Shown here piece after piece: positions 14,741 to 31,302 of a stretch of 31,302 nt of DNA. The notes beneath the pieces are model-generated. The model saw only the letters and a list, made by a program, of their open reading frames with translations. It had not been told where the DNA came from and ran no database searches. The stretch covers positions 1 to 31,302 of the forward strand of contig CBDUXP010000047.1 of the NCBI GenBank assembly GCA_965371225.1. Direction: 5' to 3'. A program made the translations under genes and the position numbers. Origin of the DNA: CBDUXP01 sp965371225 [NCBI: uncultured bacterium] (GTDB taxonomy: Bacteria > Abyssobacteria > SURF-5 > CBDUXP01). The stretch's first letter is position 1. Each line of letters begins with the position of its first letter.

Positions 14741-15655
14741 TCAATCAAAGAGTTCGTCAATATGATCTGCGCTGGATGCGAAGGGGCTAGGGTGAGTAAT
14801 CCGCTCCAGCTGCGGGTAGGCCTGGCGGAGCACATCGGGTGCCGCCACGGATTCCCCGAGCAGGGCCGCGCGTATCTGCAGGGCATTCACCACGGCCTGG
14901 CCGCGATAATGGTTGTTCGTGATCGCAAAGGTCTCCGCCGAATCGCCGGCGATCTCGCGGATCCGGGCGATCCACGGGTCCAGCTCTTCCTCACTATATA
15001 AATAGTCATACCGCTCGAAGGTGGCGGCGTCCTCGCGAAACCAATTCTCCCGGTTCCGGCCGTGCAGCCGCACGTAGCCCACCGGCCCAGTGTGCAGGGC
15101 CTGTGGGGCGATGGAGTGTGCGAAGAGGGGCTGGTCGATCGCGACGACGCCGACGTGGTGCCGCTCCAGCCAGTCCAACACCGAGGCGCGGTTCCAGGAG
15201 TCGTGCCGGACTTCCACCACGGGGCGAAGGTCGCTGAACGCCTCGGCGACCCGCTTCAGCCAGGCCGCATTCTCCTGCGTCCGCTTGAACGACCATGGGA
15301 ACTGCACCAGAAGGGCGCCGCACTTTCCCGCTTCGGCCAGCGGCGCCACCCCCTCCAACACGCGACCCACATCGCGATCGAAGTTTTCCGCTGCACGTTC
15401 ATGAGTGAAGCGCTGCCACAGCTTCACGGTGAACGTAAAGTTGGGAAGCGCCTCAGTGCGGCGCACCCAGGAAGCGGCCGCCGCAGGCGAGGGGGGCCGG
15501 TAGAAGGTGCTGTTGATCTCAATACAATCCAAGCACGCGGCGAGATACGCCAGGGTGTCCACGGAGCGGGGGAGCGGCGCCGGATACACGGGACCGATCC
15601 AGTCCTCGTACGACCAGCCAGCCACACCGACACGGATCGCGTGGGCGGCCGGCAC
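14741..15655 (-). CDS. DUF72 (YecE-like) TIM-barrel protein
   Basis: A 304-residue DUF72 protein. The pattern is clear: IRVGVAGWSYEDWIGPVYP at the N-terminus, LDCIEINSTFYRPPS, FTVKLWQRFTHERA, LLVQFPWSFKRTQEN, PVVEVRHDSWNRASV, VGYVRLHGRNRENWF and FAITNNHYRGQAVVNALQ. The fold is a TIM barrel; the biochemical role is not established, though a link to Fe-S or nucleic acid metabolism has been suggested by context in other genomes. Translation starts at GTG 15653-15655, eight bases after the stop of the lipoprotein gene, so it is likely co-transcribed with fxsA and the lipoprotein upstream and rsmG-parAB downstream. Confidence 0.9.
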   Translation of the reverse strand: MPAAHAIRVGVAGWSYEDWIGPVYPAPLPRSVDTLAYLAACLDCIEINSTFYRPPSPAAAASWVRRTEALPNFTFTVKLWQRFTHERAAENFDRDVGRVLEGVAPLAEAGKCGALLVQFPWSFKRTQENAAWLKRVAEAFSDLRPVVEVRHDSWNRASVLDWLERHHVGVVAIDQPLFAHSIAPQALHTGPVGYVRLHGRNRENWFREDAATFERYDYLYSEEELDPWIARIREIAGDSAETFAITNNHYRGQAVVNALQIRAALLGESVAAPDVLRQAYPQLERITHPSPFASSADHIDELFD

Positions 15656-15663
15656 GCCGAGCG

Positions 15664-16455
15664 CTAGCGCTGGGGCACGACGCGCGACCGCGGGGCATCG
15701 CCGTCCGGCTCTAGCACGTCCGCATCTTCCCAGCTCTCGGGCCGATGCAGCGGCCGAACGCGGCGCGGGGCCGGTGGCGCGGTAGCGCGCTCCCTGGTGG
15801 CGGCATCCGGATCCTTAGCGACCCAGTCGGCCCCTTCCTGAAAGAGGTCCGCGGGCGCGGCCACGTCTCTGATAGCCGCGGCAAAGATGGCGCGAATCTC
15901 CTGCCCGCGCCTGCTCCGCCAGCGGTTGGCCCGCAAGAGGGTGTCGTACACGTGCGTCCGGTTGCGATTTTCCTTGATGACGAGGAACGAAAGCCGGTCG
16001 GCCAGCACCGCGTCCTTCCTCCCCGCATTGCACGGCACGTGGACTGCTTTCCCGTTCTGCCTCTCGCCGATGCATCCCCGCTGCTTCCACTCCCGAAGCG
16101 CCGCGGCACGGAGTTGGCGAGCGCGGATGGCCCCCACCACCTTCGCCGGATCGAGGCGCAACGCCTCGAGGCTGGGGATCTCATAGATCAGATCCTCGCC
16201 CCCCCCCAAGACTGCAGCCGGATCCACTTCCTCCTCCCCGAACTCCAACTCCGTGGCCACGTGCTGCACAATCTGATCTTCCGATTGCCGAGCGGCACGG
16301 GCCACGGCCGTCTCAATCTCCAGAGCGAACTGTCCCACCAGGGCAGGATCCCAGGGCTGCGGTTCGCCGCGAATGCCGATGGTCACCCGAGGCAGGCTGC
16401 CGCAGCCGGCCGCCAGGGCCAGCGCGCAGGGAGCCAGGAGACGGGGGAGCCTCAC
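15664..16455 (-). CDS. DUF1318-like lipoprotein
   Basis: A 263-residue predicted lipoprotein. The first residues RLPRLLAPCALALAAGCGS form a signal peptide with the lipobox LAAGC, so Cys would be lipidated near position 18. The middle (AKVVGAIRARQLRAAALREW, then GCIGERQNGKAV and LVIKENRNRTHVYDTLLR) resembles DUF1318/YdbL-type envelope proteins, where a G-E-x-x-x-G motif is followed by an E-N-x-x-R motif. The C-terminal 60 residues are charged, Pro/Arg-rich and probably disordered. The start is a GTG at 16453-16455 that overlaps the fxsA stop (GTGA), giving translational coupling. An alternative reading from 16533 would lie inside fxsA and spoil the signal peptide. Confidence 0.7.
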   Translation of the reverse strand: MRLPRLLAPCALALAAGCGSLPRVTIGIRGEPQPWDPALVGQFALEIETAVARAARQSEDQIVQHVATELEFGEEEVDPAAVLGGGEDLIYEIPSLEALRLDPAKVVGAIRARQLRAAALREWKQRGCIGERQNGKAVHVPCNAGRKDAVLADRLSFLVIKENRNRTHVYDTLLRANRWRSRRGQEIRAIFAAAIRDVAAPADLFQEGADWVAKDPDAATRERATAPPAPRRVRPLHRPESWEDADVLEPDGDAPRSRVVPQR

Positions 16456-16862
16456 GGCTCTCGCCACCCTTCCACAGTAATAACCGTGCCCCCGCCGGGC
16501 GGCCCGAGGCGGCGAAATCGGGCGGACAGCCACCGGCGCACAAGCGCCCGCGTAGGCGGAATGAGGAGGAACAAGCCGGCGGCATCCGTCAGGAAGCCGG
16601 GGGTCAACATCACGATGCCGGCCACCAGGATCAAGAGCCCATCCACGAGCGCGTCGGCCGGCATGCGGCCCGCGTTGAGTTCCCCCTGTACGCGCTGGAG
16701 CGCCCGGAGCCCTTCCTGCCTCGCGAGCCAGGCACCAAAGACGCCCGTGACGATCACGATCAGGAGGGTACTGGCGGCGCCAATGGCCGACCCGATTTTC
16801 ATGAGCAGGTACAGCTCCACGAAGGGCAGCAGGGTAAACAGCAGCACCAGCCGGAGCAACAT
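16452..16862 (-). CDS. fxsA: FxsA family inner-membrane protein
   Basis: A 136-residue FxsA homologue. E. coli FxsA is a membrane protein known for suppressing F-plasmid exclusion of phage T7; its normal role is unclear. Seen: RLVLLFTLLPFVELYLLMKI and the following G-S-A-I-G, LLIVIVTGVFGAWLARQEGL, ALQRVQGELNAGRMPADAL, and LLILVAGIVMLTPGFLTDAAG with LFLLIPPTR, which is the hallmark TPGFLTDxxG motif. Three membrane segments are predicted. A C-terminal cytoplasmic tail carries Gly and basic residues. It starts at ATG 16860-16862, and its TGA overlaps the GTG of the lipoprotein gene. Confidence 0.93.
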   Translation of the reverse strand: MLLRLVLLFTLLPFVELYLLMKIGSAIGAASTLLIVIVTGVFGAWLARQEGLRALQRVQGELNAGRMPADALVDGLLILVAGIVMLTPGFLTDAAGLFLLIPPTRALVRRWLSARFRRLGPPGGGTVITVEGWREP

Positions 16863-16915
16863 GGCGAGATCATAGCACGCAGCGGGACGGGTCCCGCACG
16901 CTGCATCGGCTCCGC

Positions 16916-17704
16916 TCAGCCGTCGTTCACGTATCGCGCAGGCCGTTTCTCCAGAAAGGCCGTCAACCCCTCCCGCGCCTCCTCGCCTTCGAATGTTTCA
17001 GCAAACGCATCGATGCTGACCTCGATGCACCGGCTCAAGGGGAGTTCCGCCCACGCGCGCATCAACCGCTTCTGCGCGCGCACGGCCCGCGGCCCGCAGC
17101 GCAGAATGTCCGCCACGGCGGCGTCGACCGCCGCATCGAGCTGCCCGGGTTCGACCACTTCTTCCACCAGCCCGATGCGTAGCGCTTCGTCCGCGTCGAG
17201 CATGCCGCCCCGGTAGAGCAGGTTTGCGGTCTGGCCCCAGCCCACCAGGCGAGGCAGCAGCGCCGCTTCGATGACCGATGGCAGCCCGACCCGCACCTCG
17301 GGCATTCCCCACATTGCGCCGCGCTCGCAAATGCGAATGTCGCACGCCGCGCCCACCTCCGTCCCGCCGCCGAGCGCGTAGGCGCGCACCTTGGCAATGA
17401 CCGGCACGGGCGCGTCGGTAATTGCGGCACAGAGGCCGTGGAGTTCGGTGATGAAGGTGCGGGCCGTGTCCGGCGTGAGCGTACTCATTTCCCGGATGTC
17501 CGCCCCGCCGATGAACGGTGCACCATCGGCCCCTTCAAGGACGATGCAACGAACCAGGTCACTGCGCCCGACTTCGTGCAGCGCGCGCGTGCTATCCGCG
17601 ATCGCTTCCCGGCCGAGGACGTTCAGTCGCGTCCGGCCGCGAATCCCAACCGTCGCGACTTGATCGTTGCGGGTCCACGTTACCGATGGTGTGAAATCGC
17701 CCAT
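16916..17704 (-). CDS. Enoyl-CoA hydratase/isomerase family protein
   Basis: A 262-residue crotonase-fold enzyme acting on acyl-CoA thioesters. Seen: the oxyanion-hole segment APFIGGADIREMSTL, the second oxyanion segment RAYALGGGTEVGAACDIRI with the catalytic-type Glu after GGG, and MPEVRVGLPSVIEAALLPRL, where the Glu of MPEV corresponds to the second catalytic Glu of enoyl-CoA hydratases. The C-terminal helices (RAVRAQKRLMRAWAELPL and FEGEEAREGLTAFLEKRPA) are typical. True hydratase activity is therefore likely, but the substrate is unknown. The ATG at 17702-17704 is supported by the start of homology. The frame is open for another 1.5 kb upstream, but this crosses unrelated genes. It is divergent from the HAD gene, 78 bases away. 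Confidence 0.9.
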   Translation of the reverse strand: MGDFTPSVTWTRNDQVATVGIRGRTRLNVLGREAIADSTRALHEVGRSDLVRCIVLEGADGAPFIGGADIREMSTLTPDTARTFITELHGLCAAITDAPVPVIAKVRAYALGGGTEVGAACDIRICERGAMWGMPEVRVGLPSVIEAALLPRLVGWGQTANLLYRGGMLDADEALRIGLVEEVVEPGQLDAAVDAAVADILRCGPRAVRAQKRLMRAWAELPLSRCIEVSIDAFAETFEGEEAREGLTAFLEKRPARYVNDG

Positions 17705-17782
17705 GGCTCGCTCCTGTGCGCGGGATGTGTCGGCGCGGGAGAATTCTACAGGCCCGGCGGTATCGTATGATGCCTGCCGCCC

Positions 17783-18502
17783 GTGCCCCACCCCAATCTG
17801 CCGCAGCGCATCCGCGCCGTCTCGTTCGACGCCGACGACACCCTCTGGGATTTCGAGCGAGTCATGCGCCACTCGCTGGGGCACGTGCTTGCGGCCCTGC
17901 AGACGCGGCACCCCACCGCTGCAGCTGAGGTCTCCATCGATGCGATGATCGCCATCCGCAACCAAGTGGACCTGGAGTGGGGGGACAGTGGGCGTTCCCT
18001 CGAAGACATCCGCACGGAATCCTTCCAGCGGGTCGTCGCCGGGACCGGTGTAGCGGACGCCGCCCTTGCGATGCAGCTCAACGACATCTACTTCGCGCAC
18101 CGCTTCGAGGACATCGAACTCTACGGCGACGTGCTGCCCACCTTCGAACGGCTGCGCGGCCGCTACGCGCTCGGCCTGCTGACGAACGGCAACAGCTACC
18201 CCGACCGGTGCGGGCTCGACGGCTGGTTTACGTTCGCGGTGTTCGCCGACGCGCACGGTGCACGCAAGCCGGCCCCGAGCATATTTCACGCCGCGTGCGA
18301 GCAAGCGCGCGTGCAGCCGCATGAACTGCTGCACGTGGGCGATTCCCTGCACAACGACGTCTTCGGTGCGCAGCAGGCGGGGCTGCCCACGGCGTGGTTG
18401 AATCGCGCCGGCGTAGCGAACGCATCCGGCGTACAGCCCGACTACGAATTGCGGTCGTTGCGCGATCTCCTGGAACTGCTGCCGGGCGCATCGGCGGCAT
18501 AG
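17783..18502 (+). CDS. HAD superfamily hydrolase (phosphatase)
   Basis: A 239-residue HAD hydrolase with a helical C1-type cap. Motif I is FDADDTLWD (nucleophile Asp and acid/base Asp), motif II LLTNGN, motif III the Lys of ARKPAPSIF, and motif IV HVGDSLHNDVFGA. The cap spans about residues 28-105. The DxDDTLWD start and GDSLxNDVxGA end resemble YjjG/epoxide-hydrolase-like and phosphoglycolate phosphatase-like members, so a small phosphorylated metabolite is the likely substrate. It starts at GTG 17783; the nearby ATGs at 17767 and 17770 are out of frame. Its stop is two bases from that of the convergent FAD oxidoreductase. Confidence 0.88.
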   Translation: MPHPNLPQRIRAVSFDADDTLWDFERVMRHSLGHVLAALQTRHPTAAAEVSIDAMIAIRNQVDLEWGDSGRSLEDIRTESFQRVVAGTGVADAALAMQLNDIYFAHRFEDIELYGDVLPTFERLRGRYALGLLTNGNSYPDRCGLDGWFTFAVFADAHGARKPAPSIFHAACEQARVQPHELLHVGDSLHNDVFGAQQAGLPTAWLNRAGVANASGVQPDYELRSLRDLLELLPGASAA

Positions 18503-18504
18503 GC

Positions 18505-20070
18505 TCAGCCGAAGTCCGCGAGCATGGCGTGCGCCGTATTCCGCCCCGGCGCGCCCCAGAGCCCACCGCCGGGATGGGTGCCCGGCCCCGTCAAGTACAA
18601 GCCGCGAATGGGCGTGCGGTAGTTCGCCAGGCCGGGAATCGGGCGCTGTGGACCCATTTGCCGCTCCGTCGCGTCCAGGTGCCACGCATGGGCCTGCGGC
18701 AGTCCCAAGTCGCGCTCCAGATCCTCCGGCGTCTGCACGATACGCAACTGCTCCGCCCCTTCCAAGTTCGGCGCGTACTGGTGCAGGAACGTGAAGAGCC
18801 GCTCGCCTTCCTGTTGACGCACGGAATGCCAAGACACGCCCCCATCCAATTTGTATGGAAAGTACCGCGCCTCGACGGTCAACAGGTGGAGCCCATCGCG
18901 CACTCGGTCCGGGTCGAGCGCCGTCGGCGTGTGCACCGCCATGGCCGGCCAGCGGGGACTGCGGCGCTTGCGGTAGTCGGCGAACGCCGCCTCCAAATAC
19001 TCGAGCGCGGGACACACGATGGTGACGGCTTGTGCCTGTTCCTCCGCGCTGACCTGACCGTGCGATTTCCATTCCGGCAGCCGGTCGATCACATAGTCCA
19101 CCTTGAGCCCGAAGCCGTTGGCAATTTTCACGCGCTCCATGGCCGCGCGGATCGGGGCGGGCACCGCCTGATGATCCAACAGGTGCAGGAACGTGGTCTG
19201 CGGTGCGCACGCGGCGACCACCGAGCGCGCGTCCACTTCCGCGCCATCCTCGAGCACCAGCCCGCGCACGATCCCACCCGCAACCGCGATGCGCCGCACC
19301 GCCGCGTTGGTGGACACCGTGCCCCCGTGCGCCTCAACGTGCGCGACCAGCGCGGCGGCGAGCGCGCCACTGCCCCCGCGCGCACGCTCCACGCCGGTCA
19401 GGTGCGGGATCAGGGCCAGGGGGGCCAGCATGGCGCCGCCGGCGGCATCGGGCGCGATGCCGGCGACGCGCGCGATCAGAAATGCCAACACCCCCTTGAG
19501 GTGCATGTCCTCGAAGGTCGCGTCCAGCCATTGGCGCACGGACGCCTTCCGCGCGCGCTGAATGGCGGGCACCCGCGTGAGCGCCGCCACCTTCTCGCTC
19601 ACAGTCGGCGCCATGCGCTTCACCACGGCGCGCGGGTTCGGCTCCCCGAGCAGGGCGGGCTGCGCCCAGGTGAAGATATCGCTCCACTGCCGCACGAACT
19701 TCCGGTACGCGCGCGCATCGGCCACATTGCGCGCGCCGATCCCAGCCGCCGTGCGCTCCACATCCTGCCAGAACACGAGCCCGGCGTCATTCAAGCGCGG
19801 CGCGTAGAACGCGGGATCGACCCTGAGCGTGTGCAGGCCGTGCGCCTCCAGCTCCAGTTCGGTTGGGATCGGCGTGGTGGCGAGCAGCCCCAGGTCGGTG
19901 TACCACCGATCCACCCACACCCCCGGCGCCATCTCTTCGGTGGCGGCCGCACCGCCGACAACGGCGCGCCGCTCGAACACAGCGACGCGCAATCCGGCCT
20001 GGGCCAGATAGGCGGCGGCTATAAGGCCGTTGTGGCCGGCACCGACAACGGCGACATCAAGCGGCGGCAC
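18505..20070 (-). CDS. FAD-dependent oxidoreductase, phytoene desaturase/PYROXD2-like
   Basis: A 521-residue flavoprotein. The FAD-binding dinucleotide fold is at the N-terminus (DVAVVGAGHNGLIAAAYLAQ, then VAVFERRAVVGGAA). The end has the family signature YLTGPGTHPGGGLWGAPGRN. The middle has the substrate domain with W and Y residues, and GGTVSTNAAVRRIAV followed by VLEDGAEVDARSVV, as in carotenoid isomerase and desaturase relatives. The length and WGAPGRN end suit the NAD(P)/FAD oxidoreductase group near PYROXD2/CrtI, not a classic CrtI. No carotenoid genes are adjacent, so the substrate is open. The start is ATG 20068-20070, 12 bases after the methyltransferase gene and in the same operon. 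Confidence 0.88.
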   Translation of the reverse strand: MPPLDVAVVGAGHNGLIAAAYLAQAGLRVAVFERRAVVGGAAATEEMAPGVWVDRWYTDLGLLATTPIPTELELEAHGLHTLRVDPAFYAPRLNDAGLVFWQDVERTAAGIGARNVADARAYRKFVRQWSDIFTWAQPALLGEPNPRAVVKRMAPTVSEKVAALTRVPAIQRARKASVRQWLDATFEDMHLKGVLAFLIARVAGIAPDAAGGAMLAPLALIPHLTGVERARGGSGALAAALVAHVEAHGGTVSTNAAVRRIAVAGGIVRGLVLEDGAEVDARSVVAACAPQTTFLHLLDHQAVPAPIRAAMERVKIANGFGLKVDYVIDRLPEWKSHGQVSAEEQAQAVTIVCPALEYLEAAFADYRKRRSPRWPAMAVHTPTALDPDRVRDGLHLLTVEARYFPYKLDGGVSWHSVRQQEGERLFTFLHQYAPNLEGAEQLRIVQTPEDLERDLGLPQAHAWHLDATERQMGPQRPIPGLANYRTPIRGLYLTGPGTHPGGGLWGAPGRNTAHAMLADFG

Positions 20071-20082
20071 GCGCCCACTGTG

Positions 20083-20646
20083 TCACGCGCGGGCGTGGAA
20101 CACAAAGGCGGGGGGCAGGTTCCCGAGCGTGAACCGCACAACCGTATCGGGAAACACGGCGCAGATGCTGTCTTCCAGATGGCTGGAGAAGGCGCGCGCG
20201 TGCAGGTATTGATAAGTGACGAAGTGGCCGCCGGGGCGCAGGATGCGCTGAACGCCGTCCAACACGCGGGCGCAGAAGTCGAGCGGGAGATTCGCGAACG
20301 GCAATCCGGACACCACGATGTCGGCTCCGCCGTGGGGGAACTTCGCCACATGGTTTGCGATGTATTCGGCGCTGTCCTCAATGACCCGGAGGCGCGGGAA
20401 CCGCTCCCGGAGTTGCTCGGCGAAAACGGGATCGATCTCGACGGCGAAGAAGTCCGCGTCGGGCGGCAGACGCTCGTTGATGTGCGCCGTGAAGGTGCCG
20501 ATGCCCGGTCCGAACTCCACGACCGTGTGTGCCGTTTCGAACGGCAGCTCGCCGAGCATGCTACGGGCGAGTTGGCGGCTGCTGGGCATGATCGAGCCGA
20601 CGCGGCGCGGGTTGGCGAGAAACCGCCGGAGGAAAACGCCTTTCAC
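20083..20646 (-). CDS. Phospholipid N-methyltransferase-like SAM methyltransferase
   Basis: A 187-residue class I methyltransferase. FLRRFLANPRRVGSIMPSSR at the N-terminus and the SAM loop VVEFGPGIGTFTAHI are typical of the PmtA/rRNA adenine dimethylase-related phospholipid methyltransferases. Next come FFAVEIDPVFAEQLRERFP (acidic loop), DIVVSGLPFANLPLDF (with SGLPF in place of the NLPY/NLPF of KsgA), and LRPGGHFVTYQYLHA. The Y-Q-Y segment and the short length fit PmtA, which makes phosphatidylcholine from phosphatidylethanolamine, better than KsgA. The start is a GTG at 20644-20646 overlapping the TGA of the selenoprotein gene (GTGA), so translation is coupled. Confidence in the family is high; the lipid substrate is inferred. 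Confidence 0.8.
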   Translation of the reverse strand: MKGVFLRRFLANPRRVGSIMPSSRQLARSMLGELPFETAHTVVEFGPGIGTFTAHINERLPPDADFFAVEIDPVFAEQLRERFPRLRVIEDSAEYIANHVAKFPHGGADIVVSGLPFANLPLDFCARVLDGVQRILRPGGHFVTYQYLHARAFSSHLEDSICAVFPDTVVRFTLGNLPPAFVFHARA

Positions 20647-21212
20647 GACGGTCCCTGTTCCAGGGTCACTCGCGGGAGGGGGCAGAGGTGCTGGTCGGCG
20701 ATGTCCAACGTGTGGTTGAACTTCGAGGAGAAATTTTCGAAGCCGATGAGGGCCGTCAGTTCGACGACGCCCGCGGCGCCGAACTTCGCTTGTGCCCGGG
20801 CGAAGAGCGCATCATCCACATCCTGCTCCGTGTGCGTCACGCGCTCCGCATACTCCAACGCCAGGCGTTCGGGGGCATCGAACACGTCGCTCTCGTTCCA
20901 GTGACCGACGGCGGTGAGTTTCGCATCCGAGAGGCCCTGCTCGCGGCCGACCGCCGCGTTGATGTCAATTCAGAAGTGGCACCCATTCATCTGTGCGATG
21001 CGGACATTCACGAGCGACCGGAGGGGCGGCGGTATGCGGCCCGACCGCTGGAGCATGGCCTGCATGACATTGAATCCAAAGAGAATGGGGGGGCAGTGGG
21101 CGTAGACCGTGGCCGGCGTCAGGACCTTGCCGAATTTCCTGCGGTGGGAGCGGAAGAGGAAGGCCCGCGCCCACCACGGCGCCTGCTCCTCCGGAACGCC
21201 GGGAATGCGCAT
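20643..21212 (-). CDS. CMD/AhpD-like selenoprotein (in-frame TGA read as Sec81)
   Basis: A carboxymuconolactone decarboxylase/AhpD-like protein of 189 residues encoded across an in-frame TGA at 20972-20970 (codon 81). Before it: KVLTPATVYAHCPPILFGFN and RSLVNVRIAQMNGCHF; after it: IDINAAVGREQGLSDAKLTA, VFDAPERLALEYAERVTHT and a helical end with LTALIGFENFSSKFNHTL. The family motif is NGCxxC-x-D, so the TGA replaces the second Cys and gives C78-H-F-U81. A Sec there would be the peroxide/disulfide-active residue. A 6-bp hairpin with a GG-U loop follows at the right distance. The start ATG at 21210-21212 is seven bases after the GST-like gene stop. Its own stop overlaps the methyltransferase start. 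Normal gene callers would give two truncated ORFs. Confidence 0.9.
20942..20958 (-). promoter_or_regulatory. Candidate bacterial SECIS hairpin in the CMD gene
   Basis: On the minus strand CGCGGC (20958-20953) pairs perfectly with GCCGCG (20947-20942) around the loop GGTCG. The loop begins 17 bases after the TGA. A G-G-U apical loop on a GC-rich stem at this distance is the pattern recognised by SelB in E. coli-type SECIS elements. Confidence 0.75.
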
Positions 21213-21219
21213 GGGCGCG

Positions 21220-22023
21220 TCAGGTCGCCTCGAGGTTGGGCAGTTGCTTTTGCCAAAACGTGCCGCGCCGCAAGCCGTGGGCTTCCCGCCGGTCGTCCAC
21301 GGCATTCCGCCATTGCAGGTAGGCGTCGCCCTGCGGCGGCTGGTCCACGTCCGGCATCTTCGTGAAATCAGGATCTCCGAGGAGCGCCAAGATGGGCATC
21401 TTGGGCACCCACGGCGGGAATGACTCCGGGCTGCGTTTCCCCAGCCGCATGGCGGCCACAATACAGCGGTTGAACGGTTCCGCGTGGAATATCTGGTAGT
21501 CGAGCACGCTCGGCAGCGCGCCGAAGAAGAAGGGGGAGGCGCCTTCGGCCAACTGATTGATGGCGCCGAAGATGCGCCCCTGCTCGGCCAAGATGTTCTC
21601 CAGCAAGGCGGGCATGCTGCCCTGAGGCCCAAGTTCCTGTGTGGCGACGTCGAGCAGTTGGAGATGGATCGCCCCGATGGCGTGCTCCATCAGCTCCTGC
21701 TGGGCGCGCAGGCCGGGATCGTCACTCCACCCGGAAGCGTATTGCGGCGGTGGGTAGCTGCGATCGAGCAACTCGATGATGCGCGTGGATTCCGACAGGC
21801 ACACGCGGTCACCGCCTTCGAGGGTCAGGATCACCGCGGGCATGCGGGGCTGACCCGTGAGGGCCGCGATCTCGCCGCGGTCGCGCCTCTCCATGTCCAG
21901 GTGTACGCCCTTCTCTGCCGCGTAGTCGAGGCACATGCCGCACCAGGGCGATGCCCAGTGGCCGTGCCACTCGACGCGTGCCGCGTCCTGCAGCCGAATG
22001 GTGTTCGCCGTCGCGGTCGTCAT
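21220..22023 (-). CDS. GST-like protein with a thioredoxin-type CxxC
   Basis: A 267-residue glutathione S-transferase-like protein. The N-terminal thioredoxin-fold domain reads VEWHGHWASPWCGMCLDYAA, so it has WCGMC where most GSTs have a single Ser, Tyr or Cys. It continues with PRMPAVILTLEGGDRVCLSE (the cis-Pro loop) and STRIIELLDRSYPPP. The C-terminal domain is helical (LMEHAIGAIHLQLLDVATQE, ILAEQGRIFGAINQLAEG). A WCxxC motif is more like a thiol-disulfide oxidoreductase, which suggests it may reduce or be reduced by the neighbouring CMD selenoprotein; that is inference. It starts at ATG 22021-22023, 6 bases after the nitroreductase stop, and 7 bases before the CMD gene. Confidence 0.8.
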   Translation of the reverse strand: MTTATANTIRLQDAARVEWHGHWASPWCGMCLDYAAEKGVHLDMERRDRGEIAALTGQPRMPAVILTLEGGDRVCLSESTRIIELLDRSYPPPQYASGWSDDPGLRAQQELMEHAIGAIHLQLLDVATQELGPQGSMPALLENILAEQGRIFGAINQLAEGASPFFFGALPSVLDYQIFHAEPFNRCIVAAMRLGKRSPESFPPWVPKMPILALLGDPDFTKMPDVDQPPQGDAYLQWRNAVDDRREAHGLRRGTFWQKQLPNLEAT

Positions 22024-22029
22024 GACGCG

Positions 22030-22707
22030 CTACTCTTTCGTAGCGCCCCACGCATCCCAATACGTGAGGGTGGGAGCGGGCCGGCGACTGACGGGGCCGA
22101 AATTCCCCTGGGGATACCCGATGGGCAGCAAGGCGCACAGGTCCACGTTCTCGGGCACGCCTAACTCGGCCTTGATCTCGTCTTCGAAGACTCGGTGCAA
22201 CGTGGTGAGTACCGTCCCGAGGCCCAGGGCACGGCAGGTGAGGAGCATGTTCTGCACCGCCGGATAGATGCTGGCGCCGTCCGCTGTGGCGTCGCTGCTA
22301 CTCTGCGGGTCCGAGCCGAAACTCAAGTTCCGGCGTTGCATGCACGCGAACAGCAGGACGGGGGCTTCGTGCATGTGGTCGGCGAGGTAGAAGGCTGCGT
22401 TCGCCATCCGCATCTGCGCGGGATCGGGTGGCGGCGCCTCCCCCTTGTCGGCCGCCGCCTGAGCTTCCGCCATGCGCACTTGCGCATACGCGGAAAAGGC
22501 CTTGTGGTATCGCTCTTGGACGAAGCGTTTCTTGGCTGGCTCCTTCACGACGATGAAGGACCAGCCCTGCGTGTTGCCCCCACTGGGAGCCATGGTGCCC
22601 GCCTCAACGATCTGTTCGATCAGCTCGTCCGGCACGGGGTCGGGCTTCAGGCGCCGCATGGAACGCATGGTGTACATGATCTCGAACAGGGCGGGCGAGT
22701 CTGCCAT
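22030..22707 (-). CDS. Nitroreductase family protein
   Basis: A 225-residue FMN-dependent nitroreductase-fold protein. The N-terminus has MYTMRSMRRLKPDPVPDELI, then EAGTMAPSGGNTQGWSFIVV (FMN phosphate-binding). The end has NMLLTCRALGLGTVLTTLHR and ALLPIGYPQGNFGPVSRRP. These are the usual family blocks. Such enzymes reduce nitro groups, quinones or enones with NAD(P)H. The insertion with PPPDPAQMRMANAAFYLADH is typical of a subgroup seen in actinobacteria and uncultivated lineages. The start is ATG 22705-22707 with AAGGAG six bases upstream. It is the first gene of a five-gene operon behind a sigma70-like promoter. Confidence 0.9.
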   Translation of the reverse strand: MADSPALFEIMYTMRSMRRLKPDPVPDELIEQIVEAGTMAPSGGNTQGWSFIVVKEPAKKRFVQERYHKAFSAYAQVRMAEAQAAADKGEAPPPDPAQMRMANAAFYLADHMHEAPVLLFACMQRRNLSFGSDPQSSSDATADGASIYPAVQNMLLTCRALGLGTVLTTLHRVFEDEIKAELGVPENVDLCALLPIGYPQGNFGPVSRRPAPTLTYWDAWGATKE

Positions 22708-22796
22708 CGGACACTCCTTGCGGCGGAGGCGCGTGGGCAGGCGCCCCGTGCCGCTACCGCCCAGGCGCTTGGCGGTCTCGGTCGGGAAGTCGGCCC

Positions 22797-22824
22797 AGTA
22801 TATCGGCCCAGGGGCACAGAGCAA
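22797..22824 (-). promoter_or_regulatory. Sigma70-type promoter for the nitroreductase operon
   Basis: On the minus strand TTGCTC (22824-22819), 16 bases, then TATACT (22802-22797). The start would be near 22790, giving a leader of about 83 bases before the ATG at 22707. The rest of the gene-free stretch 22708-22910 is GC-rich and shows no other feature. Confidence 0.5.
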
Positions 22825-22910
22825 TCATGCGCCGCGCCGGCGGGTCGGCCACACGCGTGGGTCGGGGTGGGGTGCGAAGACCAAGCGGGGTTGCGCCGCC
22901 GCCCTGTGGG

Positions 22911-23624
22911 CTAGCCAAGGCTCCAGTCTTCGCCGTACATGTGGGCGCCCAGATGTCTCGCGACGGCGAACGAGGCGGCGTTGTCCCAGCTCGTGCTGTA
23001 CAGGGCGATACGACCTTGCCGGCGCACGGCGGCGGCCCACGCGGCCGTCACCCGCGTCGCAAAACCTCGACAGCGAAAATCCGGCAGGGTCTCCACCCCC
23101 GCCTCCGCGGCCCGTGGATGATTCCGGGCGCTGTAGCAGATGCTCACGGCGACCCCGTCGCGGATGACGGCCCAGCACGGTTGGACTCGGGCGAGAATCA
23201 GGGCAAGCCATGGGAAGTGGTCGCGGACCAGCGACGCGCCGTTCGGTGGGACGGGCACCACGTCGTCCGGCGATGAGGGGGTCGTGCGAAAGACAAATGT
23301 GGGCCCCCGGTGCTCCTGCCGCACACGCGCGTCCGCCTGCAAGAGATGGCGCACGTGGGCGTAATGGCGGGGAGGTGCGCCAAACGCGCGGATGACGGGT
23401 TCGTCGGCAAAACACTCGTGGAGCACCGCGGCCAGCGCGTCCGGGATGTCGGCGCGCAGTCGCCAAATATTGCCGTGAGGCGTTCGGCAAAGGCAGAAGT
23501 GGGGCGGCGGTGGCCCCATCTGCAGTCGTGCGCACACCACGATGCGATGCGCCGCGTCGAGCCGATACAAGACTGCGGGGCGCAGACGCAGGAGCGTTAA
23601 TTCGCTCGGCATGCGGGCGAGCAT
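22911..23624 (-). CDS. GNAT family acetyltransferase
   Basis: About 237 residues. The C-terminal half shows the GNAT acetyl-CoA fold: WAVIRDGVAVSICYSARNHP, then AEAGVETLPDFRCRGFATRV with the Q/RxxGxG/A-like R-C-R-G-F-A loop, then WAAAVRRQGRIALYSTSWDN and ASFAVARHLGAHMYGEDWSL, typical of FR47-like or GNAT members acting on small molecules. The N-terminal about 100 residues are a variable domain. Two ATGs are possible, at 23624 and 23612; neither has a clear ribosome site, so the start is uncertain by four residues. The gene is divergent from the GT39-like gene. Confidence 0.82.
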   Translation of the reverse strand: MLARMPSELTLLRLRPAVLYRLDAAHRIVVCARLQMGPPPPHFCLCRTPHGNIWRLRADIPDALAAVLHECFADEPVIRAFGAPPRHYAHVRHLLQADARVRQEHRGPTFVFRTTPSSPDDVVPVPPNGASLVRDHFPWLALILARVQPCWAVIRDGVAVSICYSARNHPRAAEAGVETLPDFRCRGFATRVTAAWAAAVRRQGRIALYSTSWDNAASFAVARHLGAHMYGEDWSLG

Positions 23625-23720
23625 AGCGAAGGCGGCGGCCGGGGTCGAGGGCGCACAGGCGTCCGCGGCCGGCGGTCTTATACTGTGAGGGATCCCTGGG
23701 CCGCCGAGCCCGCAGGTTTC

Positions 23721-25328
23721 ATGCCCGAGCCCACGGACGCGCCCCCCAGTCCGACGCCGCCCCGCAGGCACCGCCGCATCGGCTGGATCTTGCTCTTCGC
23801 TGCCGGCGTGCGGCTGGTGATTCTCTGGCAGGCGAGCGCCCACGATCCCACGTTCGGCCGCTGGCTCCCCGCGCAGGACATGTACGCCTTCGACGCGTGG
23901 GCCCGGGCGATAGCGGAGGGCGACTGGGCATTCGATCCCCGCCCGCACATGCCGTTCTCGCCCACGTACCCGGCTCTGTTGGCCGTGATCTATCGATGCA
24001 TCGGGGCCGACATGCGCATAGTCGCGGCCGTACAGATGGGGCTGGGTCTCGTCGCGGTGTACGGCGTGTACGGGATTGGGCGGGCGCTGTTTACGGAACG
24101 GACTGCGCTCCTGGCGGCGCTTGGATATGCGGTGTACCTGCCGGCGTGCTATTACGAGACGACGCTGCTGCGTGCGGCCTGGGTCACTACGGCGGTGGCC
24201 GTGGGAGCGTGGTGGCTGCTGCTGGGCGTGGAACGCGGCGCGCGCGTGTGGTTGCTGGCGGTCGGCGCGGCATTGGGAACCGCGACCGCGCTGCGTGTCA
24301 GCAATGTCCTGTTGGTCCTCGCCGCGGCAGGCGCGGTCTTCCAGTACGCGCGCGCACCACGCGGCCGCCGGGCAGCGCTGGTCGGCTTCCTGCTGTTGGG
24401 CACAACGATCGCGTGGGCACCATGGCTGGTGTGGGACAGCGTTCGGCCTCGAACGGTTCAACCGGGTCAAACAGCGGCGCATGTCAACCTGATCGCCGGG
24501 AACACGCCGGACGCCACCGGCGTCTTTTACCACATCCCCCCCACGGCGGAACGCATCCTGGCCGAGGCGCGTGGAGACGAAGCGGTGTTGGCCCGCAGTG
24601 TGGGCGCCGCCATCGCGGCTCAGCCGGTGCGATGGTTGGGTGTGCAGCTCCGCAAGGCGCTCGTGTTCTGGCATGGCTATGAACCGACGAACAACCTCAG
24701 CATGTCCATTTCAGCGCGCTTCGTTCCGGCACTCCGGCTACCGGTGGTCCGGTACTGGCCGGTCGCCGTTGTGGCGCTCGCCGGCCTGTGCGTCACCTGG
24801 CGGCGCTCGCCGGGGACGCGCACCATCGCCGCGTTAGTCCTGGCCGTGTACGCGTCCATTGCCCCGTTCCTGCTGCTCAGCCGATACCGCCTCGCGGTTG
24901 TGCCACTGTTGTTGCCGTTCGCCGCGTGGACGTTGTTGCACGGGTGGGGCGCGCTTCGTTCACGTGGACGTTGGACACGGGCGAGCGTGTGTGCAGTGCT
25001 GGGCGCCGCGCTGATCGCAACGCATCCCGCGACGTTCCGCTTCTGGTTCGCGCCGGCTTTCGTGGCGCATTTTGAAAGTCAGGCGGCGCTCAATCTGGCA
25101 GTCATCTATGTGCAGGGGGGTCGTCCCGACGAAGCGCTCGCCGAGTACGCGCGCCTGTATGAGGACGCGCCGGCCTTCGAGCCGGCTTTTGCCCAGTATG
25201 TGTTCCTGTTGCGACAGACTGGGCGCACCGCGGAAGCCCGTCGCGTGTGTGCAGACGCGCAGCAACGGGGCCTGCTCGGCCCGGACGCTCTGGGCATCTG
25301 CGGGTCGGTCTCGGACGAGGCGTCCTGA
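23721..25328 (+). CDS. GT39/PMT-like polytopic glycosyltransferase with C-terminal TPR
   Basis: A 535-residue polytopic membrane protein. It begins with a Pro-rich cytoplasmic tail, then about 11 membrane segments (for example RIGWILLFAAGVRLVILWQ, VAAVQMGLGLVAVYGVYGIG, LLAALGYAVYLPACYYETTL). The first loop has D-x-x-x-Y-A-F-D-A-W-A-R, where GT39/ArnT-type enzymes keep acidic residues for lipid-linked sugars. HPTYPALLAVIYR-like context is seen as SPTYPALLAVIYR. The last about 75 residues (NLAVIYVQGGRPDEALAEYA, then LRQTGRTAEARRVCADAQQR) form one to two TPR units. I prefer the ATG at 23721 since a TATACT -10 element (23679-23684) would start transcription after the upstream GTG at 23685. The donor and acceptor are unknown. 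It is immediately followed by the YfhO-like gene. Confidence 0.8.
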   Translation: MPEPTDAPPSPTPPRRHRRIGWILLFAAGVRLVILWQASAHDPTFGRWLPAQDMYAFDAWARAIAEGDWAFDPRPHMPFSPTYPALLAVIYRCIGADMRIVAAVQMGLGLVAVYGVYGIGRALFTERTALLAALGYAVYLPACYYETTLLRAAWVTTAVAVGAWWLLLGVERGARVWLLAVGAALGTATALRVSNVLLVLAAAGAVFQYARAPRGRRAALVGFLLLGTTIAWAPWLVWDSVRPRTVQPGQTAAHVNLIAGNTPDATGVFYHIPPTAERILAEARGDEAVLARSVGAAIAAQPVRWLGVQLRKALVFWHGYEPTNNLSMSISARFVPALRLPVVRYWPVAVVALAGLCVTWRRSPGTRTIAALVLAVYASIAPFLLLSRYRLAVVPLLLPFAAWTLLHGWGALRSRGRWTRASVCAVLGAALIATHPATFRFWFAPAFVAHFESQAALNLAVIYVQGGRPDEALAEYARLYEDAPAFEPAFAQYVFLLRQTGRTAEARRVCADAQQRGLLGPDALGICGSVSDEAS

Positions 25329-27629
25329 GTGCGCCAGGGGAGCGTCGCGCCGCAGAGTCAGACGCGCGCGGCCTGCGTTGCGCTAGCGCTCGTGGTGACG
25401 GCCTGGTACGGCCGCTATCTGCTTGACCCGTGGCGCGTGCCGGTCGGCGACATCCTGGATAACTACTTCTACCTGTTTGCCCACTTGGGCGCGCGCTATC
25501 GCGCGGGCGGCCTCCCCCTGTGGTCCGCGCACTATTACGCCGGACATCCGTTCTTCGGCAACATGCCTTCGGTGTTCTACCCCGGGGATCTCCTGTTTGT
25601 AGCGTTGCCCACGACCCTCGCCTTCGCGGTGGACCGGTGGTGGCACCTGATCCTGGGCGCGCTCGCCATGTACGGCGTGGGTCGGCGGCTGGGCCTGGCG
25701 CCGCTCGGGGCGTTCGTGGCGGGCGTGCTCTACACATGCAGCGGCCAGCCGTGGGAGCACGTGCGCGCCGGCCACGTGTACATGGTGCGCACGGGCATGT
25801 GGTTTCCCGTGGTCATCTGGGCATGGCTCGCTCTGTGGCAGACGGAGCGTCCCGCCCGCGCCTTCGCGCTTGCGGCGCTGGCGGCGGGGTGCTTCTTTCT
25901 TTCGGGCCATCCCCAGATTTTCACGTACGGAACGGTCGCGTGGGGAGTGCTGGCGCTGGCCGCTGCCAGCGCAACCTCACGCGGTGCATGGCGCTCAACC
26001 TGGAGTCGGGTGGGAGTCAGCGTTGCGGCCGGCGCGGCCGGGCTTCTCCTCGCGGCGCCCCAGCTCCTGCCGCTCGCGGAGTTGGCGCGCCACACCTCGC
26101 GCGCCCAGGCCGACCTCGCCATTGCCGGGGGCCTCGCGTGGCCGCTGCCGGGATGGGTGCACACGCTGTGGCCCCAGGTGATGGTGACGGGAACCGCGCC
26201 GGGCCCGCCGCTCATGATGCCGCACGCGGAACATGGGGCTTTCCTGGGAGCGGTGGCGCTCTGTTTCGCCGCCGTGGGCGCCTGCTCCCGGAGTTGGCCC
26301 GGCCGGCGCCTCGCACTCGTGGCCCTCGTATTTGGCGCCTGTTACGCCCTCGGGCATCAGACGCCACTCCTGCGGTGGGTGATCGCCGTCTTGCCGCCGC
26401 TCGGCCAATTTCGTATTCCCGCACGCATGCTGTTCCTAGCGCTCTGGGGCTTCGCCCTGCTGGCGGGACGCGGGGCCGATGCGCTCACTGATCGCGGCTC
26501 CGCCCGCCGCCTTCACGCCGCCGCCGTGGGTCTGGTGAGTCTTACCGCCATCGGCGGCGGGGTGTGGGTGCTGGGCGGCGCCATGCGCACGGGACGGCTC
26601 TTCTCGGTAGAGACGGCGGGCTCCCACGCCGGCGTGAGCCTGCTGGACTCTTGGTCCGCCGCTGCGCTATGGGCGCCGGTGCTGTCCCTCGCCATCGTGC
26701 CGGGCTTCTGTCTTCTGGTTTCCCGGTGGGTGCCGCGACGCGGGGCACCCGCGATGCTAGCCGCTGGTCTGCTGCTGAATTTGGGGCTGGGGTACCGGTT
26801 GCAGTCTCCGGCCGTTTTCGAAGAGCCGCCAAACGCCGTGGCACGCGCGGCGGCGCACACGCCGCTCGGCCGGGTGTTTGAGCCCACGAGCCGGCGGGGA
26901 GCCATGTCCAGCCTCATCACGGGCGAGCGCAATCTGAACGGGAGCGGCCCGTTTCTCCTGGCAACCTTGCAGGCGTACCTGGGCCGTATTGCGGGCTGCG
27001 CTCCGGTGCGCGACACCAGCTACGCGTTCGATCCGGCCGTGGGCCAGTGTCGCAACGTGGCTCGCTACCGGCTCCTCGACATCGAGGCGACCCTGTGCAG
27101 CGGGACCGCGGGGCAGCAGATGCAGAAGCTGGACCACGCGCATGCATGGGTAGCCGGCCGGGTGCGCACGGTGCGGGACGAAGCCCAAGCGCTGGCTTCC
27201 GTTACCGCAGCGGACTTCGATCCCGCGACCACCGTGGTGCTCTTGCCGGAAGACCGGACGCGCGTACCGGACATCGCCGACGGACCCGTTGCGGCCGTGG
27301 TGGAGCTGCAGGCTGCGGACCATCACCGCCAGACCTGGCGGGTGGAGCTGGACGCTCCGGGCGTGTTCGTGCTGAGCGAACTGCACTATCCCGGATGGCA
27401 AGTGTCCGTAGACGGCGAGCGCCGCGCGGGGTTGCGCGCCAACTTTCTCTTGCGGGGGGTGGCGCTTTCCGCCGGGGCACATACGGTTACGTGGCGGTAC
27501 CAACCGTGGAGCTTTCGCGTGGGCGCCGGTGCCTGGGCGCTCGGGTGCGGCATCATTGCCTGGAGCTGGCGGCGCGGGCGATCGCGGGCCGCTGGTTCCG
27601 AACCGCCGGCCCCACCCGAAAGTGGGTGA
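25329..27629 (+). CDS. YfhO-like large membrane protein
   Basis: A 766-residue membrane protein similar to the YfhO family (GT-C fold, linked in Firmicutes to sugar transfer onto envelope polymers). It has about 12 membrane helices. The first loop has DILDNYFYLFAHLGARYRAG and LPLWSAHYYAGHPFFGNMPS, the characteristic P-L-W-x-x-x-x-x-G-x-P region. Later it has LPPLGQFRIPARMLFLALWG, the F-R-x-P-x-R signature. The last about 200 residues are soluble and beta-rich, ending FVLSELHYPGWQVSVDGERR and GAHTVTWRYQPWSF, as in many YfhO proteins. The GTG start at 25329 comes directly after the previous TGA, so the two genes are coupled. The stop is 13 bases from that of the convergent regulator. Confidence 0.88.
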   Translation: MRQGSVAPQSQTRAACVALALVVTAWYGRYLLDPWRVPVGDILDNYFYLFAHLGARYRAGGLPLWSAHYYAGHPFFGNMPSVFYPGDLLFVALPTTLAFAVDRWWHLILGALAMYGVGRRLGLAPLGAFVAGVLYTCSGQPWEHVRAGHVYMVRTGMWFPVVIWAWLALWQTERPARAFALAALAAGCFFLSGHPQIFTYGTVAWGVLALAAASATSRGAWRSTWSRVGVSVAAGAAGLLLAAPQLLPLAELARHTSRAQADLAIAGGLAWPLPGWVHTLWPQVMVTGTAPGPPLMMPHAEHGAFLGAVALCFAAVGACSRSWPGRRLALVALVFGACYALGHQTPLLRWVIAVLPPLGQFRIPARMLFLALWGFALLAGRGADALTDRGSARRLHAAAVGLVSLTAIGGGVWVLGGAMRTGRLFSVETAGSHAGVSLLDSWSAAALWAPVLSLAIVPGFCLLVSRWVPRRGAPAMLAAGLLLNLGLGYRLQSPAVFEEPPNAVARAAAHTPLGRVFEPTSRRGAMSSLITGERNLNGSGPFLLATLQAYLGRIAGCAPVRDTSYAFDPAVGQCRNVARYRLLDIEATLCSGTAGQQMQKLDHAHAWVAGRVRTVRDEAQALASVTAADFDPATTVVLLPEDRTRVPDIADGPVAAVVELQAADHHRQTWRVELDAPGVFVLSELHYPGWQVSVDGERRAGLRANFLLRGVALSAGAHTVTWRYQPWSFRVGAGAWALGCGIIAWSWRRGRSRAAGSEPPAPPESG

Positions 27630-27642
27630 CGGCGTCCGGCGC

Positions 27643-28749
27643 CTAGGAGGCCAACTGGGGCGTGATGATCCCTTCCATCTGGTTTTCCAGATGGGCGAAC
27701 TGCTGTTGAATCTCCAGGACTTGTGGCTCGCAGCGGATGAACGCTTCCACCACCATCGGATCGAAGTGGCTCCCGGCCGCTTCCACGATGGTCTGGCGGG
27801 CTTGCTCGTGGGGCCACGCTTCCTTGTACACGCGCTTGGAGCGTAGCGCGTCGTACACGTCCGCCAGCGCCATGATGCGGGCGGACAGGGGAATCTCCTC
27901 ACCCTGCAGGCCCCGGGGGTAGCCGGCCCCGTCCCACTTCTCATGGTGGCAGTACGCGATGGCCTTGCCCACTTCGAGGAAGCTCCGGCGGTTCAAACGC
28001 GCCTCGGCGGCTGCCAGCGTCGCGCCGCCGATCACCGTGTGCAGCTTCATCTCCTCGAACTCTTCGGCCGTCAAGCGGCCGGGTTTCAGGAGGATCGCGT
28101 CGCGAATGCCGACTTTCCCGATATCGTGCAAGGGCGACGAAATGTAAATCGACTGAATGTACTCGCGCGTGATGTAGCCATCGTATTCGGGAAACGCGGC
28201 CATCTCCTCGGCCAGCACCTTCGTGTAATTTTGAATACGTTCCAGGTGGCCGCCCGTCTCGGGGTCGCGCGATTCGGCCAGTTTGGCCAACGCGAAGATG
28301 GCCGCTTCCTGCGTCTTGACGAGTTCTTCGGCGTACTCTTCGGTCTGCCGCACCTGGGTGCGCAGATCCTCCATCAACCGGCGCTCGCGGATCACCCGCT
28401 GCAGCTTCGCTTCGAACTCCCCGCCGCGGAACGGCTTCACGAAAAAGTCACTCGCCCCGGCCTCGATGATCTGCGTGAAGGTGTACTCCGCCGAATACCC
28501 TGTGATCACAATCACATCAATCTGGGGATAGTTCGCGCGGACGAACTTCAGCAGCGCGATACCGTCCATGACCGGCATCTTGAGATCGGTCACGACGATA
28601 TCGAGCGGCGTGGTCTCGATAATATTGAGCGCTTCCTGGCCATTGGAGGCCGAGGCGCACCCCAGACCCAGCTTGTCCGTCACGAGCGCCTCTAGGAGGG
28701 CCAGGATGGTGGGGTCGTCTTCGACAATCAGAACGCGCGGCGTCGCCAT
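27643..28749 (-). CDS. Two-component response regulator with HD-GYP domain
   Basis: A 368-residue cytoplasmic regulator. The receiver domain spans about residues 1-120, with acidic D11/D12, phospho-acceptor D55 (TDLKMPVMDG) and K105 (VKPF). A coiled-coil-like linker (RRLMEDLRTQVRQTEEYAEE) leads to the HD-GYP domain at about 150-350, with H208-D209 in LHDIGKVGI, HHEKWDGAGYPRG at about 268-280 and IMALADVYDALRS. HD-GYP proteins hydrolyse cyclic di-GMP. The key residues and GYP motif are intact, so activity is likely. No sensor kinase is adjacent. A sigma70-type promoter lies at 28826-28854, which leaves a leader of about 70 bases. Confidence 0.95.
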   Translation of the reverse strand: MATPRVLIVEDDPTILALLEALVTDKLGLGCASASNGQEALNIIETTPLDIVVTDLKMPVMDGIALLKFVRANYPQIDVIVITGYSAEYTFTQIIEAGASDFFVKPFRGGEFEAKLQRVIRERRLMEDLRTQVRQTEEYAEELVKTQEAAIFALAKLAESRDPETGGHLERIQNYTKVLAEEMAAFPEYDGYITREYIQSIYISSPLHDIGKVGIRDAILLKPGRLTAEEFEEMKLHTVIGGATLAAAEARLNRRSFLEVGKAIAYCHHEKWDGAGYPRGLQGEEIPLSARIMALADVYDALRSKRVYKEAWPHEQARQTIVEAAGSHFDPMVVEAFIRCEPQVLEIQQQFAHLENQMEGIITPQLAS

Positions 28750-28804
28750 ACGGGGGCTGCTACTACTCCGGCGTTAGGGGGAAACCGGCAAACAACGAGC
28801 TGAT

Positions 28805-28831
28805 GCTAAATCAGCTAATTTTGCTATTTTA
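28805..28831. repeat. 9-base direct repeats in the regulator promoter
   Basis: Three units beginning GCTA occur at 28805, 28814 and 28823, exactly 9 bases apart and each AT-rich after that. In addition TGCTAAA (28804-28810) is repeated inverted as TTTAGCA (28828-28834). The array overlaps the -10 element and transcription start of the HD-GYP regulator, so it may be an operator. A further TAGC/GCTA pair lies at about 28884-28898. The gene-free stretch 28750-28978 is AT-rich and otherwise featureless. Confidence 0.4.
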
Positions 28832-28854
28832 GCAGTCTACATGGGTCGAAGCAA
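28826..28854 (-). promoter_or_regulatory. Sigma70-type promoter for the HD-GYP regulator
   Basis: On the minus strand TTGCTT (28854-28849), 17 bases, then TAAAAT (28831-28826). The predicted start is near 28819, about 70 bases before the ATG at 28749. Both boxes are close to consensus. Confidence 0.6.
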
Positions 28855-28978
28855 CCCACGATACTTACGAATATCGGACAGTTTTAGCTATTTATGCTAG
28901 TCAGGTTCGCTTCTGCCCAGAGAATCCGGACTGACGGAATCCAGAGAGGGCGCGGGGAGCCCATGGGAAGAGTGCCTG

Positions 28979-29272
28979 ATGAGCACAGGACCCGCGGGCG
29001 ACCCCGTGGCGCTTGGCTCCAACGGCAGCTACCCTAGAAGTGGCGGCCGGCGGCTGGCAGTCCCCGCGGCAACCGGTCCCACCTTCTCCATGCGGCCAAT
29101 CTTTCTCGTCTTGCTCGCGCTCTGTGTAGCGGCCATTCCCACGTTCTGGATGTGGCGCCGCATGCGCGAGGAGCGCCGCACGTCGTTGGACGACCACGTC
29201 AGGCGCGCCAAGGCACACGCCCGGACGGAATTGAATCGGTACCTCAGCGAGGAACGGTCCAAGGACGGGTAA
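28979..29272 (+). CDS. Small single-pass membrane protein
   Basis: A 97-residue hypothetical protein. An ATG at 28979 has a weak GGGAAGAG upstream. A second ATG at 29090 would give a 60-residue protein that begins right at the membrane segment RPIFLVLLALCVAAIPTFWMW. After it comes a charged helical tail (RRMREERRTSLDDHVRRAKA, then RTELNRYLSEERSKDG) predicted to be cytoplasmic. The N-terminal 37 residues before the second ATG look unstructured, so the short form may be the true gene. The codon pattern in the membrane and tail part is protein-like. Its stop is 24 bases from the convergent LLM gene. Confidence 0.5.
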   Translation: MSTGPAGDPVALGSNGSYPRSGGRRLAVPAATGPTFSMRPIFLVLLALCVAAIPTFWMWRRMREERRTSLDDHVRRAKAHARTELNRYLSEERSKDG

Positions 29273-29296
29273 CGCCGATGGTCGGCCGCGGCTGCC

Positions 29297-30211: not shown

Positions 30212-30255
30212 GGGTGGTGTCTCCTGTTCTCTGGTGGGTGTGCAGCGGGGGCGGG

Positions 30256-31197: not shown

Positions 31198-31221
31198 GCC
31201 ACGTCTCCCTTGCGTTCGTCA

Positions 31222-31260
31222 CTCCCGCCGCATGCGGACCGGGCGTCGGTCCGGCGGGAG
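31222..31260. other. Strong bulged hairpin upstream of the LLM pair
   Basis: CTCCCGCC (31222-31229) pairs with GGCGGGAG (31253-31260). Inside, GGACC (31236-31240) pairs with GGTCC (31248-31252) around GGGCGTC. The left side has a 6-base GCATGC bulge. It is 13 bp of stem in all. It lies between the stop of the partial gene at the edge and the LLM start. It lacks a T-run, so it may be a Rho-independent-like pause, an attenuator or an mRNA processing site. Confidence 0.5.
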
Positions 31261-31266
31261 CGGTAG

Positions 31267-31302
31267 TTATGCCACGGCGCCGGCGCCGAGCAGCCCCGCG
31301 AT
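31267..31302 (-). CDS. C-terminal end of an unidentified protein (partial)
   Basis: The minus strand frame enters from the window edge and reads IAGLLGAGAVA to a TAA at 31269-31267. Only 11 residues are present, so no family can be named. It lies on the same strand as the LLM genes, about 70 bases upstream, and could be part of the same unit. Confidence 0.35.
   Translation of the reverse strand: MAGLLGAGAVA

Follow-up and report, generated by a model that had tools for sequence, protein, structure and literature searches.

The locus described here raises the question of whether a TGA codon in the middle of a CMD/AhpD-like gene marks a broken gene or encodes selenocysteine (Sec). The gene lies in a stretch of 31,302 nucleotides, which we refer to as the window, and reading it with the standard code splits the gene in two at the UGA. 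Our analysis indicates that UGA codon 81 encodes Sec in a thiol-selenol oxidoreductase of the CMD/AhpD fold, a reading to which we assign a probability of about 0.95. The relevant features of the gene are:

20643–21212, minus strand: CMD/AhpD-like (YnjA-like) gene, read as a selenoprotein of 189 residues including U81
20979–20981, minus strand: codon 78, the first Cys of CxxU and the presumed resolving Cys
20970–20972, minus strand: in-frame TGA, codon 81, read as Sec; at the aligned position relatives have Cys and orthologues TGA
20942–20958, minus strand: hairpin CGCGGC-GGTCG-GCCGCG, a putative bacterial SECIS that begins 12 nt downstream of the TGA

The frame runs from an ATG at 21212–21210 to the gene's own TGA stop at 20645–20643, and the TGA of codon 81 is the only internal stop (an earlier note on this DNA named no strand, and a plus-strand reading of 20643–21212 yielded nothing). 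The run G-C-H-F-TGA-I-D-I-N described in the earlier note can be read directly from the sequence in this frame, and the claim in the same note that both halves are CMD sequence is borne out by the Pfam CMD model (PF02627), which spans the TGA (residues 49–123, 1.6e-12) and scores 47.7 bits against a gathering cut-off of 23. The protein lies just above the cut-off of the AhpD family core domain model TIGR00778 (29.4 vs 27.8 bits) and below that of the peroxidase-related enzyme model TIGR01926 (22.7 vs 81.8 bits). Its best NCBIfam match is NF053654 (GroundWater_YciW, 'YciW-related (seleno)protein'), which covers residues 2–176 with 149.2 bits against a cut-off of 310, making the window protein a relative of this family and not a member.

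A variant code that reads TGA as Trp or Gly throughout the genome would also keep the frame open, and nothing beyond the in-frame TGA itself speaks for it. We examined 23 other window genes (a few of their start positions are approximate) and found no inner stops and 134 TGG codons, with TGA ending 11 of the 23, so that TGA is not a Trp or Gly codon across the window; such a code is what the earlier note had named as fatal to its claim. The residue found at this site in relatives is likewise Cys, and neither Trp nor Gly, and we regard the chance of a variant code as negligible.

That residue was established by tblastn, in which 32 related loci gave 31 rows (L012 gave none, and L001 and L002 represent one gene). 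The second Cys of CxxC is Cys in 30 of the 31 relatives and TGA in one (L013, from genome G140), which is the TGA/Cys pairing that the earlier note had proposed to look for; a different residue here would have spoken against Sec, and the residue is Cys. An example is L001, from a Wenzhouxiangella assembly and the one relative that a search of the genome collection yielded, which has 40% identity and Cys at the position of codon 81; in the phylum of this assembly 398 genomes were searched with NF053654, with matches in 166. Genome G323 was considered as a second TGA genome and rejected, as the TGA that had been counted is an ordinary stop and the locus reads Cys, and it remains in our counts among the Cys genomes, as one that has SelB. 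An in-frame UGA opposite Cys in homologues is one of the criteria by which bacterial selenoproteins are recognised, and this is what we see in the window gene.

A second criterion is the conservation of both the UGA and the sequence following it in orthologues, and this too is found here. Among 61 genomes around G140, 34 have a near-full orthologue (identity of 70% or more across almost the entire length). One or more TGAs lie inside every one of these orthologues, and we take the second stop listed for some of them to be the natural end of the gene. The TGA is at the codon-81 site, in the motif NGCPFU, in all 30 of the G140-group orthologue loci read; G428 was read additionally as L104, and G406, G422 and G420 are counted among the 34 with the codon unread. 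None of the 31 G140-group orthologues read at this codon has gone back to Cys. The window protein is identical to the G140 protein at 51 of 100 positions after the TGA and at 25 of 62 before it, which indicates that the part following the TGA has not decayed. A class sample of 385 genomes yielded four more TGA genomes (G484, G685, G756 and G493). We found no relative of the CMD protein in the viral contig collection, and no plasmid record similar at the DNA level to window positions 15000–31302.

We also note that G417 carries, beside its G140-type orthologue, a second and diverged CMD protein with a TGA at the same place (L084:2959–3510), which has ~40% identity to the window protein, and that G409 and G421 have a Cys paralogue of the YnjA-like branch (L082 and L083) alongside the Sec form.

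These orthologues bear on the simplest alternative, that the TGA arose by recent nonsense mutation in a pseudogene or is a miscalled TGC or TGT in the assembly. Only one base separates TGA from either Cys codon and the window may be a lone metagenome contig, but all 30 orthologues read have TGA at this codon, the frame contains no other stop, and GC3 is similar on both sides of the TGA (0.86 before and 0.83 after). A further argument comes from another gene in the window:

9752–10801, plus strand: DUF3179 gene, a probable second selenoprotein, with an in-frame TGA at 10133–10135 (codon 128)

Here, the TGA lies opposite a Cys in all 30 of the relatives that align at the site (31 were offered for comparison). 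That a single 31-kb stretch should have TGA at two conserved Cys positions, both in known selenoprotein families, argues strongly against error, and we consider there to be only a slim chance that the CMD gene is a pseudogene or an assembly artefact.

The DUF3179 motif in the window is U-P-L-N, with Asn replacing the usual second Cys, and for DUF3179 selenoproteins the literature gives UxxC/T (PMC9312934, PMC13188914); the terms AhpD, CMD and DUF3179 are absent from PMC12013277. The hairpin following the DUF3179 TGA is unremarkable, with a 4-bp stem (P 0.85 by synonymous recoding). Five places in the window were picked out by a codon-score survey for read-through TGAs. One is the DUF3179 gene, three are ordinary gene junctions, and the last is a weak candidate at 2148 on the plus strand, antisense to mutS. 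It should be noted that this survey overlooked the CMD gene at the thresholds used and so is not exhaustive.

If codon 81 is read as Sec, the genomes which carry the TGA form should have the machinery to decode it. SelB was found above cut-off in 33 of the 34 genomes with TGA orthologues vs 5 of the 27 remaining genomes of the G140 surroundings, and one of these five (G424) has an end fragment of the orthologue which stops short of the site. Both SelB and tRNA-Sec are present in all four of the further TGA genomes, and in G140 itself the two are adjacent (the tRNA-Sec beside selB scores 71.2 bits in G140 and 72.6 bits in G323). SelB was also found in 9 of 25 genomes chosen for non-TGA forms (24 were read as Cys; G106 was unread and is without a stop) and in one of four further non-TGA genomes (G323). 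SelB therefore accompanies the TGA form and, as expected, occurs outside it as well. The exception is G416, which has a TGA-form CMD gene (L075) and in which SelB was not found, nor tRNA-Sec at E 1e-8; this assembly is perhaps incomplete, or its TGA-form gene may be a relic. The Cys genomes G001 and G370 have no SelB but give weak tRNA-Sec matches a little above the cut-off of 47 bits (50.8 and 49.1 bits), and for this reason we accepted only matches near 71–78 bits as tRNA-Sec. Within the 31-kb window itself there is neither a tRNA nor any Rfam match that reaches gathering scores; SelB and tRNA-Sec are presumed for the organism from which it comes.

The earlier note had also placed weight on the hairpin following the TGA, and its description of the stem, the GGTCG loop and the 17 nt from the TGA to the loop is accurate, with 11 nt separating the TGA from the stem. 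The weight was too great for the window hairpin. When the sequence was recoded synonymously, 33% of 20000 recodings gave a G-loop stem at least equally long somewhere in the range, 18% of 20000 did so with the register kept, and 11% of 4000 folded at least as well. Similarly, a 66-nt fold at this position is no better than those of shuffled sequences (z 0.37, with 126 of 200 shuffles as good). We have rejected the window hairpin as stand-alone evidence for Sec, as it is no rarer than chance in three null tests (P 0.11–0.33 in the recodings). Recoding of L013 in the same way gave P 0.065 for its hairpin.

In the orthologues the picture is different. Across 30 orthologue sequences (24 distinct) the cells of a 7-bp stem are paired in 98.2% of cases, compared to 31 to 54.2% in slid controls. 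The paired percentage, the 24 doubly changed cells and the covariation score were each matched by 0 of 500 shuffles; the number of pairs changed on both sides and the number of further pair types are unexceptional (37 and 196 of 500 shuffles as high, respectively). With five sequences added, 94.7% of cells are paired, and the five measures were reached by 0, 1, 0, 47 and 0 of 500 shuffles. As kinship alone can beat shuffles without any structure, the slid control carries most weight in the assessment of covariation. RNAalifold recovers the same stem unaided. The window hairpin resembles it with an offset of one base, and L084 has a hairpin in the window's register with two compensated pairs, though this is a comparison of only two sequences, too few for statistics, and is reached by 140 of 500 shuffles. 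The hairpin is thus evidence for Sec in the orthologues and not in the window by itself.

A phylogenetic tree was constructed from the window protein and 50 aligned loci (51 were offered, including 10 of the 30 TGA loci L052–L081), in which U was scored as C to keep the label from driving the grouping. The 15-row set into which the window protein falls is made up of TGA-bearing forms throughout and has support of 99/92 (rows L013 and L052 of this set are the same gene). L084 is on a long branch with no sure position, and a single group of all 16 Sec rows would have support of just 50/13.

Sec is the best reading of codon 81 because of the TGA/Cys pairing in relatives, the orthologues with the same TGA, the presence of SelB in 33/34 and 4/4 of the genomes concerned, the covarying hairpin and the TGA-only set in the tree. 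SelB and tRNA-Sec would decode the UGA as Sec, probably aided by the hairpin 12–28 nt downstream, with the window's own hairpin a candidate SECIS. More generally, a selenoprotein from an orphan contig can be confirmed through relatives for which there are whole genomes.

Selenoproteins of this kind are already known. CxxU AhpD-like proteins (27 sequences) and CMD-domain proteins (four sequences) were included in a 2005 report on the Sargasso Sea (PMC1088965), AhpD-like families 1 and 2 account for 299 and 70 selenoproteins in the 2008 Global Ocean Sampling data (PMC2398784), and AhpD-like (COG2128, YciW) or CMD-like (PF02627) selenoproteins are also listed in PMC9312934 and PMC13188914. As such proteins have been published since 2005, the window protein adds to a known kind. 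By description, it shares with the ocean proteins the CMD fold family, Sec as the second residue of CxxC and widespread Cys homologues; it differs, again as compared by description, in belonging to a YnjA-like branch and in scoring below the TIGR01926 and NF053654 cut-offs. Its identity to Escherichia coli YnjA and similar proteins is 44.7% over residues 23–180 (the name YnjA is taken from one plasmid record), and the related loci L014–L019, which were read at this site, have Cys where the window protein has Sec.

The window protein also shares the two-helix CxxC core fold with PA0269, an AhpD of Pseudomonas aeruginosa, and its fold match to the Mycobacterium tuberculosis AhpD is weak (E 0.28 and above). 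The latter protein uses two Cys residues and a relay of Glu118, His132 and His137 (PMC3141380). In both of these AhpD proteins the relay consists of Glu, His/Tyr and His around the two Cys residues (in the order Glu, Cys, His/Tyr, Cys, His), whereas the window protein has Ser66, Cys78, Phe80, Sec81 and Asn85, with the Glu column placed 12 residues before the first Cys (Glu36 is 12 before Cys48). Asn85 is kept in 15 of 15 Sec rows and in 27 of 35 Cys rows of the alignment, so loss of the relay probably preceded the gain of Sec or happened independently of it. Because a selenol is acidic and ionises with less help than a thiol, Sec81 is probably the residue that attacks, as a selenolate, with Cys78 the probable resolving thiol. 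The substrate may be a peroxide or a disulfide partner.

A structure model of the window protein has a modest mean pLDDT of 66.7, rising to 81–94 by blocks over residues 61–120, and its best fold match is to AhpD proteins of the PA0269 type. The debrominase Bmp8 was also matched (6ohi and 6ohj), which raises the alternative that this is the same selenoprotein with another chemistry, acting as a reductive dehalogenase-like enzyme and not as a peroxidase. Bmp8 is a CMD homologue which removes bromine (PMC7918430), it matches the window protein in sequence along most of the chain (1.2e-4, residues 20–185) as well as in fold, and the AhpD relay residues are missing from the window protein. Against this, the PA0269-type proteins outscore Bmp8 in both sequence and fold searches, the model is of modest confidence, and the neighbouring genes which we tested do not suggest a halogenation cluster. 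Peroxide or disulfide reduction appears to be the likelier chemistry, with dehalogenation a fair rival in kind which we nevertheless consider rather improbable.

We might also speculate that the window protein and its TGA-only relatives constitute a distinct selenoenzyme family within the YnjA-like branch, having CxxU without the relay, an acidic selenol in place of that relay, a substrate unlike that of AhpD (e.g. a halogenated aromatic or an organic peroxide), and Sec as the ancestral and retained state; this is a tentative proposal and we lean against it at present. Even so, a clade with only TGA forms, a strongly covarying hairpin and no usual AhpD relay offers a tractable system for determining what selenium contributes to the CMD fold.

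The immediate neighbours of the CMD gene in the window are:

20083–20646, minus strand: methyltransferase-domain gene, downstream, with a GTG start overlapping the CMD stop (GTGA)
21220–22023, minus strand: GST-like gene, upstream, with GST_N matches just under the Pfam cut-offs and ending 7 bases before the CMD start

The earlier note had described overlaps on both sides of the CMD gene as in a tight operon. The downstream junction does overlap, at GTGA, and the upstream junction is a 7-base gap without overlap. Adjoining the methyltransferase gene is a desaturase/ketolase-like flavoprotein gene (18505–20070, minus strand), which scores 281 bits with the CrtO model against a cut-off of 1000. 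Four window neighbour genes had no match in any of 139 loci, most of which span ~1.5 kb per side. The genes neighbouring the G140 orthologue (loci around L049), which we take to be serA-like and transporter-receptor-like, have relatives in 21 and 29 of the 139 loci. The G140 group has its own gene neighbourhood, unlike that of the window.
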